From NCBI RefSeq assembly GCF_014192215.1, contig NZ_JACHXP010000005.1, forward strand, positions 62,001 through 126,000: a stretch of DNA of 64,000 nucleotides. The letters run 5' to 3'. This document shows positions 30,980 to 52,724 of this stretch, piece after piece. Source of the stretch: Halomonas cerina (GTDB taxonomy: Bacteria; Pseudomonadota; Gammaproteobacteria; Pseudomonadales; Halomonadaceae). The translations under genes and the position numbers were made by a program. The notes under the pieces are model-generated. The model worked only from the letters and a program-made list of their open reading frames with translations. It was not told the origin of the DNA and searched no databases. Position 1 is the first letter of the stretch. Each line of letters begins with the position of its first letter.

Positions 30980-32086
30980 ATGCCACTCGATCGTCTCGCC
31001 TTTCAGGGGTTGCGCAACCTGCAGCCCATCGATTTCACTCCTGCCGCCAGGATCAACCTGCTGGTGGGCGCCAACGGCAGCGGCAAGACCAGTCTTCTCG
31101 AGGGCATCCATGTGCTCGGCATGGGACGCTCCTTTCGCACCCGACAGCTCCATCACGCCATCGCCCATGATGACGACACCTTGACCCTGCATGGTCGCCT
31201 GGCCGGCGACCCACCGATTCCCATCGGGGTCCGGCGCCGCCGGGCATCGGCGGAGCCGGAACTGAAGGTCGCGGGGGAACGGCTCGAGCGGCTCTCTCGC
31301 CTGGTGAGTATCTTGCCGCTTCAGCTGATCAACCCGGATGCCTTCCGGTTGCTGGAGGGGCCGCCGGCAGGGCGACGCGAGTTCATGGACTGGGGAGTGT
31401 TTCACGTGAAACACGCGTTTTTGGATGCCTGGCGACGCTTCCGACGCGCGTTGAAACATCGGAATGCCCTGATCAGGCATGGTAGAATGAATGATGCGAC
31501 CTTGGGCGCCTGGGAGCATGAGCTGGTGCACTGGGGAGAGCAGCTGGACGGTTTGCGCCGGGCCTGGCTCGAGGCCTTCTTGCCGCTCTTCGAGGAGACA
31601 CTGACGGGACTGATTACGCTGCCGGAACTGCGGCTGCGCTATTCCCGCGGCTGGGATAGAAAACGCGCCCTGGCGGAGGTCCTGCACCAAGGGCGGGTGA
31701 CGGACCGGCAGATGGGCTTTACCCAGCAGGGCCCTCAGCGCGCCGAGCTGGGGATTCGCCTGGGCAAACGGCCGGCGGTGGAAGTGCTGTCGCGTGGCCA
31801 GCAGAAGCTGGTCGTGAGTGCGCTGAAGCTCGCTCAGGGCCGCCTGCTCGAGCAGGCGACGGGCCGCGCCTGCATCTACCTGATCGATGACCTTCCTGCA
31901 GAACTCGATCGCGACCATCGCCGCGTCTTCTGCGAGTGGCTCGAGCGAATGGCATGTCAGGTCTTCATCACCAGCGTCGACCACGAGGCCCTGGCTGGCC
32001 TCTGGCAATCCCACACGCCTGTGGCGATGTTCCACGTGAAACAATCGGCATCGGGACACGGACAGTTGCTGCCACTGGACAGATAG
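30980..32086 (+). CDS. recF: DNA replication/repair protein RecF
   Basis: A 368-residue SMC-like ATPase acting with RecO and RecR at gaps. Walker A GANGSGKT is at 30-37, and the ABC-like signature VLSRGQQKLVVSALKLAQGR and Walker B CIYLIDDLPAELD come near the end. Two complete parS sites lie inside the gene, at codons about 140-145 and 350-355, and give the peptides FHVKH and FHVKQ. No clear ribosome site precedes the ATG, suggesting translation coupled to dnaN. Confidence 0.97.
   Translation: MPLDRLAFQGLRNLQPIDFTPAARINLLVGANGSGKTSLLEGIHVLGMGRSFRTRQLHHAIAHDDDTLTLHGRLAGDPPIPIGVRRRRASAEPELKVAGERLERLSRLVSILPLQLINPDAFRLLEGPPAGRREFMDWGVFHVKHAFLDAWRRFRRALKHRNALIRHGRMNDATLGAWEHELVHWGEQLDGLRRAWLEAFLPLFEETLTGLITLPELRLRYSRGWDRKRALAEVLHQGRVTDRQMGFTQQGPQRAELGIRLGKRPAVEVLSRGQQKLVVSALKLAQGRLLEQATGRACIYLIDDLPAELDRDHRRVFCEWLERMACQVFITSVDHEALAGLWQSHTPVAMFHVKQSASGHGQLLPLDR
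31398..31413. promoter_or_regulatory. parS site 1 (inside recF)
   Basis: TGTTTCACGTGAAACA, a perfect 16-bp palindrome and the classic chromosomal ParB-binding sequence. It is kept within codons for VFHVKH of RecF. Confidence 0.92.
32028..32043. promoter_or_regulatory. parS site 2 (inside recF)
   Basis: TGTTCCACGTGAAACA, matching the parS consensus of B. subtilis and Pseudomonas. It lies near the 3' end of recF. Confidence 0.92.
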
Positions 32087-34541: not shown

Positions 34542-34557
34542 AGTTTCACGTGAAACA
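34542..34557. promoter_or_regulatory. parS site 3 (just after gyrB)
   Basis: AGTTTCACGTGAAACA: 15 of 16 bases of the palindrome (first base A not T), 14 bp after the gyrB stop and directly before the heptamer arrays. Confidence 0.88.
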
Positions 34558-34566
34558 CTGTTGAAA

Positions 34567-34601
34567 GCGCCCAGCGCCCAGCGCCCAGCGCCCAGCGCCA
34601 A
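34567..34601. repeat. Heptamer tandem array, unit GCGCCCA
   Basis: Four exact copies of GCGCCCA (34567-34594), then one changed copy GCGCCAA (34595-34601) that grades into the next array. Non-coding. Confidence 0.95.
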
Positions 34602-34602
34602 G

Positions 34603-34658
34603 GGCCAAAGGCCAAAGGCCAAAGGCCAAAGGCCAAAGGCCAAAGGCCAAAGGCCAAA
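34603..34658. repeat. Heptamer tandem array, unit GGCCAAA
   Basis: Eight exact copies of GGCCAAA in a row, ending at the terminator stem. The unit differs from the array just before it, but the period of 7 is the same. Confidence 0.96.
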
Positions 34659-34659
34659 G

Positions 34660-34693
34660 AAAAGCCCCACCATCGAGAGATGGTGGGGCTTTT
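34660..34693. terminator. Bidirectional terminator between gyrB and gmhB
   Basis: AAAAGCCCCACCATC (34660-34674), GAGA loop, GATGGTGGGGCTTTT (34679-34693): a 15-bp stem with T runs in both directions. It serves convergent gyrB and gmhB and sits between two heptamer arrays. Confidence 0.92.
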
Positions 34694-34718
34694 CTATTAT
34701 GCTGCAGGCTAGCCTTCC

Positions 34719-34788
34719 TTGCACCTTGCACCTTGCACCTTGCACCTTGCACCTTGCACCTTGCACCTTGCACCTTGCACCTTGCACC
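34719..34788. repeat. Heptamer tandem array, unit TTGCACC
   Basis: Ten exact copies of TTGCACC without an interruption, ending 6 bp before the stop codon of gmhB. Perfect identity over 70 bp implies recent expansion. Confidence 0.97.
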
Positions 34789-34794
34789 TTGTGG

Positions 34795-35358
34795 CTATGG
34801 CCTCAATAGCCAGTCGACGAAGGCCACCAGGTCGTCGAAGATGTACGTGGCGGACGCATCGGCGGCCAACTCTGGATGCTTCGTCAGGGTGCGCGTGCCC
34901 TTGCCGGTGCGGACCAGCACGTTGTGGCAGCCCATGGCCGCGCCGGCCTCGAGGTCGCGCAGGCTGTCGCCGACCATCCAGCTTCCCGCCAGCTCCTCCA
35001 GGCCGAGTGCGTCGCGAATCTCCTCCAGAAGGCCGGGAAGCGGTTTCCGGCAAGCACACCGATCGTCAGGCCCATGGGGACAGACGGCGATATGAGCGAT
35101 CTCGCCGCCAGCGTTGCGCACGAGGCGCGCCAGCTCGTCATGCATCTCGGCCAGGGTGGCCTTGTCATAGTAGTCGCGGGCGATACCCGACTGATTGGTG
35201 GCGATGGTTACCGTCCAGCCGGCTTTCGTCAGGCGGACTATGGCGTCGATGGCCTGAGGATAGGGCAGAAATTCGTCGAGGGACTTTACGTAGCTGTCGG
35301 AGTCCTGATTGATCACCCCGTCACGGTCAAGGATCACGAGCCTGTCAGCGGATGGCAT
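34795..35358 (-). CDS. gmhB: D-glycero-beta-D-manno-heptose 1,7-bisphosphate 7-phosphatase
   Basis: A 187-residue HAD phosphatase. The nucleophile motif is VILDRDGVIN (Asp nucleophile and acid), with the family zinc-binding loop CPHGPDDRCACRKP. It makes heptose 1-phosphate for ADP-heptose synthesis, acting after HldE's kinase. The start is MPSADRLVILDRDG at 35358; an extension of 24 residues upstream would run through parS site 4. It is 3.5 kb from the LPS cluster that uses its product. Confidence 0.93.
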   Translation of the reverse strand: MPSADRLVILDRDGVINQDSDSYVKSLDEFLPYPQAIDAIVRLTKAGWTVTIATNQSGIARDYYDKATLAEMHDELARLVRNAGGEIAHIAVCPHGPDDRCACRKPLPGLLEEIRDALGLEELAGSWMVGDSLRDLEAGAAMGCHNVLVRTGKGTRTLTKHPELAADASATYIFDDLVAFVDWLLRP

Positions 35359-35388
35359 GATGGTGTTCTCCGGATAGCAGTGGCCGAG

Positions 35389-35404
35389 TGTTTCACGTGG
35401 AACA
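35389..35404. promoter_or_regulatory. parS site 4 (upstream of gmhB)
   Basis: TGTTTCACGTGGAACA, a consensus parS with one half of each common type, 30 bp upstream of the gmhB ATG. Confidence 0.92.
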
Positions 35405-35410
35405 TCGGCT

Positions 35411-35431
35411 GCCAAGGGCCAAGCAGCCAAG
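35411..35431. repeat. Degenerate heptamers (GCCAAGN-like)
   Basis: GCCAAGG, GCCAAGC and AGCCAAG follow one another. They are imperfect but keep the period of 7 and resemble the GGCCAAA unit at 34603-34658. Confidence 0.5.
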
Positions 35432-35468
35432 AAAAGCGTGGAAAAGAATCATTTTTCGCCATCATCCC

Positions 35469-35501
35469 GCTAGGCGCTAGGCGCTAGGCGCTAGGCGCTA
35501 G
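35469..35501. repeat. Heptamer tandem array, unit GCTAGGC
   Basis: Four exact copies of GCTAGGC (35469-35496) plus a partial fifth, ending 5 bp before parS site 5. CTAG is otherwise rare in GC-rich gammaproteobacteria, so four in a row stand out. Confidence 0.93.
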
Positions 35502-35505
35502 AGGG

Positions 35506-35521
35506 TGTTTCACGTGAAACA
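35506..35521. promoter_or_regulatory. parS site 5
   Basis: TGTTTCACGTGAAACA, a perfect palindrome identical to site 1, between the GCTAGGC array and the glyS terminator. Confidence 0.93.
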
Positions 35522-35531
35522 ACATGACATG

Positions 35532-35558
35532 AAAAAGGCCGGCGATGGCTCGCCGGCC
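35532..35558 (-). terminator. Rho-independent terminator of glyQS
   Basis: On the minus strand GGCCGGCGA, GCCA loop, TCGCCGGCC, then TTTTTC. It lies 27 bp after the glyS stop and is a strong intrinsic terminator. Confidence 0.92.
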
Positions 35559-52628: not shown

Positions 52629-52724
52629 ATGAAACGCAAGCCCGATCTGGTCCTGGTCCTGGTCCTGCTGTTCGCTATCGGGGTCGTGGCGACCGGCTAT
52701 GCCCAGGCGCTGTCGGGCAGCTAA
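52629..52724 (+). CDS. Small single-pass membrane protein of unknown function
   Basis: A 31-residue frame with MKRKPD, then a hydrophobic segment LVLVLVLLFAIGVVATGYA and a short QALSGS tail. AAGGAAG lies about 6 bp before the ATG, a good ribosome site. It is not part of ilvA (185 bp away) and a hairpin follows at 52758. I do not recognise a family. It could be a small stress or membrane peptide. Confidence 0.6.
   Translation: MKRKPDLVLVLVLLFAIGVVATGYAQALSGS

Follow-up and report, generated by a model that had tools for sequence, protein, structure and literature searches.

The heptamer arrays crowded around gmhB in Halomonas cerina are best read as lineage-specific expansions of single units within short, older, and imperfect heptad tracts at gene ends, a reading to which we assign a probability of roughly 0.75. 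Three observations carry it: arrays are anchored at stop codons, orthologous sites occur in unexpanded or differently expanded states, and a dispersed repeat is framed by heptads. Throughout, an array is an exact run of at least three copies, genes are those called by a simple script based on codon usage, and the window is the whole 64-kb stretch of DNA analysed.

An exact-run scan of the window (periods 1–24) found four period-7 arrays, all within 936 bp, and TRF recovered the same four; the sole further exact array is CTGGTC ×3.5 at 52647, with a period of 6. The neighbouring genes, named from their proteins, are presumably gyrB (+), gmhB (−), and glyS (−), and all four arrays lie outside called genes. 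Array 1 (AGCGCCC ×4.9, 34566..34599, + strand, that of gyrB) lies downstream of gyrB and parS and passes into array 2 (GGCCAAA ×8.1, equivalent to AAGGCCA, 34603..34659, +) through a graded junction at 34594..34610 (+), where AGCGCCC, AGCGCCA, AGGGCCA, and AAGGCCA follow one another with one substitution per successive unit. Array 2 reaches a terminator-like stem recognised by eye (34660..34693, 15 bp with a GAGA loop), across which arrays 1 and 2 face array 3 (AAGGTGC ×10.7, 34717..34791, − strand, that of gmhB; TTGCACC or CCTTGCA on +) as inverted arms. Array 3 starts 3 nt past the stop codon of gmhB (34795..35361, −, counted from the first ATG-like start; stop TAG at 34795–34797) and is the only one to adjoin a stop codon, arrays 1, 2, and 4 adjoining parS, one another, or a terminator. 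Array 4 (AGCGCCT ×4.9, followed by AGCGGGATGATGGCG; 35468..35501, − strand, that of glyS and gmhB; CGCTAGG on +) is the fourth, and a second terminator-like stem, seen by eye, lies downstream of glyS (35537..35558). As for features of phase variation, the four arrays are non-coding and array 4 lies upstream of the gmhB promoter, the position of which is a guess.

The initial annotation had described four exact, non-coding heptamer arrays within about 1 kb, one grading into the next, and all of this was borne out. Its description of the units as unlike one another is too strong, most of them being variants of each other: read on the sense strand, the units are AGCGCCC, AGCGCCA, AGGGCCA, and AAGGCCA on the gyrB side, AAGGTGC on the gmhB side, and AGCGCCT on the glyS side, and single-base steps connect all of them except AAGGTGC. 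The degenerate GCCAAGN set that it listed is present as three copies of GCCAAG (35411..35431, +; copies at 35411, 35418, and 35426), spaced by 7 and by 8 bases.

Orthologous sites in relatives exhibit the states between seed and array. In the gyrB–gmhB interval of one relative (L055 of G015), the terminator stem and distal flank (TATGCTGCAGGC.AGCCTTCCTTGC) are nearly identical to those of the window and the parS side is similar; it has two copies of GCGCCCA where the window has AGCGCCC ×4.9, one CACCAAAG where the window has GGCCAAA ×8.1, and both AAGGAGC and AAGAAGC, mixed, in place of the window's pure AAGGTGC ×10.7. AGCGCC lies within 25 nt after a parS half site in 15 of 52 gyrB–gmhB intervals, our own included, and was not found there in the other 37; by eye, the intervals other than our own hold one or two copies, and in one of the 15 (L142) the motif is inside the terminator stem. 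In the gmhB–glyS interval of three relatives from one other genus, flanked by parS in each, AGAGGGA is expanded in L133, AGCTACG in L137, and both in L136. At L048, AAGGAGC ×7.3 grades into AGGGAGC ×11.3 by one substitution. Such seed, mixed, and differently expanded states are expected if an old mix of heptads re-expanded locally. The longest array seen is a 719-bp exact run of GGCTACG ×102.7 in a gyrB–gmhB interval (L148 686–1404, relative G065).

Local expansion of pre-existing heptads can therefore explain how several different heptamers come to lie in one place. It had been argued that local slippage could not do so, and that expansion of ancestral units in relatives would speak against that view; relatives indeed show short or mixed heptads with different units of one mix expanded, which is largely what was named as contrary evidence.

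The gyrB–glyS interval was compared across relatives, as had been proposed, and proved array-prone in the genus: a period-7 array was found at 10 of 29 same-genus gmhB loci (the best 29 of 57 genomes with a match) vs. 0 of 58 at two control loci (the best 29 relatives each; Fisher 5e-6). A non-coding array of any period from 5 to 21 occurs at 12 of these best 29 loci and at none of the remaining 17, and a family set added 6 of 27 further gmhB loci with a period-7 array. Two other loci, A and B, carried an array in 5 and 7 of their best 29 relatives, not significantly different from gmhB (p = 0.20) and, combined, in excess of the controls (p = 2.6e-4). The controls were window loci without an array in our genome, and loci A and B were chosen because they have one; genomes with a match, our own included, numbered 57 for gmhB, 58 for control 1, 61 for control 2 or locus A, and 60 for locus B, so these comparisons join best-29 sets that differ in genomes between loci and count related species as independent. 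Period-8 arrays were also seen among the best 29 relatives of each locus (two at gmhB, four at locus B, and one at locus A), and periods 11 and 14 occur once each at gmhB loci. Array-prone loci are thus common to the genus, with or without parS, since loci A and B resemble gmhB and exceed the controls.

Period-7 arrays are also spread across the H. cerina genome (4,168,933 bases in 53 contigs), and the impression that they are peculiar to the window kilobase did not hold. Forty stretches of 20 kb outside the window (800 kb) contain 37 exact arrays of periods 1–30, 30 of which have period 7, or one per 27 kb; the others have periods 6 (three), 3 (two), 8 (one), and 9 (one). Twenty of the 40 stretches begin at contig ends, where three arrays lie in the first 150 bases; without these three, period 7 accounts for 27 of 34. 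Another set of stretches was partly picked around known arrays. A genome-wide search for 7-bp arrays of any sequence had been suggested earlier; in the 800 kb sampled, period 7 predominates, and periods 6, 8, and 9 are not equally common, though periods 8, 11, and 14 occur in relatives. Within the genus, one array was found in 240 kb of G004, two in 240 kb of G007, and none in 320 kb of nine further genomes together. Two contigs of our genome start inside heptamer arrays of exactly 95 bp (L070 1–95 and L074 1–95, contigs C4 and C8), arrays that are probably longer in reality and interrupt the assembly. A period-9 array, TCGCCGGTT ×9.6, was also noticed at L082 17789–17874, within about 2.9 kb lacking called genes.

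With the window included, the 34 period-7 arrays of our genome carry 16 distinct units, and a single array is inside a called gene; being tandem, exact, and mainly intergenic 7-bp units, they are heptameric simple sequence repeats. AGC or GCT occurs in 10 of the 16 units (shuffled mean 4.4; 10 reached in 4 of 2000 shuffles), an enrichment that is suggestive only. The pattern AGCNNCR ×3 plus AGC matches in 27 of 194 genomes of the order and its reversed form in nine, with 22 of the 27 having no reversed match; units ending in G match this control by construction. A fixed framework RGCNNCR for all arrays was rejected, as it does not accommodate the relatives' units GGGCGAG, AGAGGGA, and GCCAGTA. 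Permutation testing of frameworks against the arrays did not discriminate, many frameworks being matched by any one exact array, and a genome-specific unit common to loci was dropped as seemingly inconsistent by eye.

Gene ends are where these arrays sit. Thirty of the 34 lie between two called genes, three at contig starts, and one in a called gene, and a gene 3′ end borders the gap for 27 of the 30 intergenic ones. Fourteen of these 27 are within 4 nt of the stop codon, compared with 1.9 for random placement in the same gap, a count reached in 0 of 2000 shuffles; eight arrays share one or two bases with the stop codon. Of the 30 arrays, 14 lie in convergent gaps, which make up 14,321 of 113,119 gap bases, and three in divergent gaps, which make up 28,391, arrays within one gap being counted singly. 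In five other Pseudomonadales genomes, a stop lies no more than 12 nt from nine of 17 arrays (3.2 for random placement; reached in 1 of 2000) and no more than 4 nt from four (1.5 for random placement; reached in 65 of 2000). Imperfect tracts follow the same pattern: among 354 3′ ends without an exact array, 13 show a lag-7 identity of at least 0.5, vs. 0–4 for other lags from 4 to 13 and nine for lag 14. Intergenic DNA outside exact arrays has no general lag-7 excess (0.270, with lags 6 and 8 at 0.274 and 0.264), and heptad seeds are therefore confined to some 3′ ends.

In mechanistic terms, seed tracts would occupy a stretch where change is tolerated, bounded on one side by a terminator and on the other by something fixed, either a stop codon or parS together with the likely promoter of gmhB. 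Whole units would be gained or lost there through replication slippage or unequal recombination, a step that we infer because the evidence consists of between-species states with one genome per species. Mismatch repair is described, in the part of the source available, as handling loops of 1–3 bases well and longer ones poorly (PMC4060949); loops of 7 nt would escape it, and gene ends would tolerate the resulting change in copy number. If one unit acquired a point mutation and was then expanded in its turn, a second array would arise beside the first, with the grade observed between arrays 1 and 2, and several variant heptads in the starting tract would lead to different units being expanded in different species with one period. 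The same expansion would act at gene 3′ ends across the genome, where some of the tracts are inverted arms belonging to a repeat found at dispersed sites. A period of 7 does not follow from slippage alone. The imperfect heptads at 3′ ends favour a seven-base step inherited from heptad-framed seeds in this genome, because lag-7 tracts are present there and yet general intergenic DNA has no lag-7 excess.

Several arrays of our genome form the arms of a dispersed repeat with a terminator between them. The layout of the repeat runs from heptads through conserved sequence around GTGACGGGCGGCAGGTATCGAGG, a stem resembling a terminator, and further conserved sequence around CATCATCCTG to heptads on the opposite strand, and its ends often abut stop codons. 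The repeat pattern matches 21 places in the assembly at up to three mismatches (reversed control, one), three of which (L208, L210, and L212) resembled chance matches, with the rest of the repeat absent; these three were left out of the alignment, as was L202, which is a true further copy lying 1.1 kb away from the one at L201 but had been read at the position of L201. An HMM built from 11 copies outside the samples gave 16 matches in the 864 kb searched, seven strong (76–128 bits) and nine weaker (16–36 bits), the weaker ones for the most part marking these repeats again on the opposite strand; reversed DNA gave 0 matches, and 800 kb of relatives gave one weak match. Three copies lack the stem (L194, L206, and L209). 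Flanking genes differ among our copies, except at the overlapping loci L201 and L202. In the genus, the pattern was found in 30 of 90 genomes at up to two mismatches, with the reversed control in four of 90. At the orthologous copies L203, L218, and L231, the core is kept while L203 has CGGCGCT ×8 and the other two a few mixed heptads; at L199, L220, and L225, our own L199 has period 7, L225 period 8, and L220 no array. At L205, the core contains GACGGGC in almost four copies, again with a 7-bp step.

The core-bearing repeat has homologous copies at unrelated sites, as a MITE-like element would, and the window is not such a case. It has arm-like heptads and no repeat core, and is not filed as a copy because the core is absent; its arrays score 17.2 bits (array 4, weak, E 0.002) and 15.9 bits against the repeat HMM. 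Array 4 has the run AGCGGGATGATG in common with one other array region of our genome, which is at most a hint. No plasmid copies of the repeat core were found at E 1e-3. REP/BIME-like repeats are likewise dispersed and non-coding, located at gene ends, with inverted arms. In the Halomonas repeat, unlike these, the arms are tandem heptads in variable number, and the sole PF01797 (Y1_Tnp) match in the assembly sits in a 3,366-bp locus that contains no heptad run and no core; a link to a RAYT transposase thus found no support. This locus (L377, at about 104385 of contig C7) looks IS200/IS605-like, with a TnpB-like ORF, recognised by eye, beside the Y1-transposase match.

A wider reading, which we hold tentatively and consider possible rather than probable, takes these structures as Pseudomonadales 3′-end cassettes: inverted arms with a seven-base grammar, a stop-fixed end that sometimes overlaps the A or AG of the stop codon, and an exchangeable terminator, which would spread between gene ends and serve as a nursery of period-7 arrays. 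Two large intergenic elements in G160 (L177 and L180) have inverted AGTTNAA heptamer arms beside AGCNNCA-type arms.

The heptad arms might instead be functional and selected, binding a protein, protecting the 3′ end, or aiding termination, with the arrays as an amplified signal, which seems unlikely but deserves weight. The anchoring at stops, the inverted arms around terminators, and the core kept at orthologous sites across species are consistent with such a role. In a set of 62 arrays with a bordering 3′ end (our samples, the window, and the relatives' loci), 37 have a purine-rich sense strand (p = 0.16); the proportion is 26 of 30 among arrays no more than 20 nt from a stop vs. 11 of 32 among those farther away (Fisher 3e-5, with the 20-nt cut picked after seeing the data), a near/far split that fits two inverted arms. 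Stop-codon usage points the same way, heptad-bearing 3′ ends using TAA or TAG in 22 of 29 cases vs. 127 of 343 others and TGA in seven of 29 vs. 216 of 343 (p = 9e-5). A selected signal is, however, hard to square with unit sequences that vary between species at one site and with the 17 of 29 best relatives' gmhB loci that lack any non-coding array of period 5–21; the absence of an Rfam match over six loci says little.

The expansion reading also accounts for the arrays better than does their most conspicuous neighbour, parS. A pattern search found five parS sites, at 31398, 32028, 34542 (one mismatch), 35389, and 35506, vs. 0.02 expected on average in shuffled sequence, and these five, all inside the window, are the only ones in the assembly. 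Three share the kilobase of the arrays (34542..34557, 35389..35404, and 35506..35521) and two are further upstream, at 31398 and 32028, within a recF-like ORF (30980–32086). Beside parS, CTTGGCAG (35409..35416, −) is a possible −35 box of gmhB and a possible array seed in relatives; GCCAAG lies within 9 nt of a parS half site in 30 of 53 intervals, our own included, and together with that half site might make up a promoter of gmhB that ParB would overlap, as judged from the sequence. The initial annotation had considered that selection for ParB–parS spacing made or keeps the window arrays, in line with the position of arrays between or beside parS in many relatives (by eye) and with the array-rich gmhB locus (10/29 best relatives vs. 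0/58 controls). The 30 period-7 arrays sampled in 800 kb elsewhere in H. cerina have no parS nearby, because all five sites are in the window; loci A and B in relatives are about as array-prone (5/29 and 7/29), and the length of the gyrB–gmhB interval varies over 53–267 bp in 52 genomes, leaving aside four longer ones (713–827 bp), in three of which the gyrB end is possibly misplaced. Arrays are thus not restricted to the neighbourhood of parS, either in those 800 kb or at the two other array loci in relatives. A dependence of the window arrays on the adjacent parS sites is not supported, and spacing selection appears very improbable.

Active writing of 7-bp units, by templated or reverse-transcribed addition, had also been suggested; it would suit the dominance of period 7 over many units and the similar heptads at unlinked places and in other families, but the units of a given site pass into one another by single substitutions and agree with the local seeds, which a fixed template would not produce, and the 16 distinct units in 34 arrays and the periods 8 and 11 in relatives make it more improbable still. 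Equally slight is the chance that a looped-out unit forms a mini-hairpin and so sets a 7-nt step. Each window unit has a 4-bp palindrome by eye (GCGC, GGCC, TGCA, or CTAG), which would allow a 4-bp stem with a 3-nt loop; over 39 distinct units folded as six-copy strands, however, folding energy was not below that of permuted units (mean z −0.18, s.e. 0.14) and 14 units vs. 13.05 expected have such palindromes, in a set that is not unbiased, some units having come from a pattern search. A hairpin-driven step was rejected on this lack of a folding effect. An assembly artefact is the least credible explanation, for although two of 20 contigs of our genome examined begin inside 95-bp arrays, arrays also lie inside its long contigs and, in relatives whose assemblies consist of about two contigs, inside the main one (L038 of G007 and L048 of G004), and arrays at contig ends suggest truncation, not invention.

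Heptamer repeats are known from other bacteria. In the accessible portion of one report, the Xanthomonas GGGAATC heptamers have the loose framework GGGANTN, are intergenic, have a mean distance of 28 nt to the ORF on their 5′ side vs. 160 nt to the downstream ORF, occur as convergent inverted pairs (70 in one genome and 75 in another), and differ in length between species (PMC4692102). Insofar as that text describes them, the Halomonas arrays resemble them in being intergenic, near the upstream gene end, and in convergent inverted pairs, and differ in that the units are mostly not of the G-quadruplex type, distance is measured to the stop codon itself, the arms partly enclose a terminator and a dispersed core, and orthologous seeds are seen. 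A G-tract of at least three per unit on one strand was found for one of the four window units, AGCGCCC, with GGG on the other strand. Geobacter metallireducens is reported, in the section available, to have 49 dispersed elements of four tandem heptamers, both intergenic and intragenic and predicted to be regulatory (PMC2700814); these have another sequence and, by that account, also lie inside genes, and Halomonas adds stop-codon anchoring and expansion. The TAACTGA repeats of marine Beggiatoaceae are, in the excerpt consulted, one fixed unit mostly upstream of start codons, unlike the many units at gene ends here; the same excerpt mentions cyanobacterial (Nostoc) heptamers and a proposed explanation of seven by polymerase contact (PMC4679880). 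A 2007 survey, cited via PMC4692102, reported that heptamers are in excess in bacterial genomes, and the available parts of PMC4692102 and PMC4679880 give no settled cause for this. No paper on these Halomonas or Pseudomonadales units turned up in searches of the open-licence literature, which included exact unit strings. The heptamer excess is thus already known, and what is added here is stop-codon anchoring, inverted arms, and a multi-species series.

Striking neighbours such as parS may accordingly be incidental to where heptamer arrays arise. Should the cassette reading be true, the seven-base step would be inherited from the arms and not chosen by the slippage machinery. One orthologous site shows the seed, the mix, and different expanded units across species, and array loci are common to the genus; with this series of states, the question of why the period is seven can be put as an experiment.
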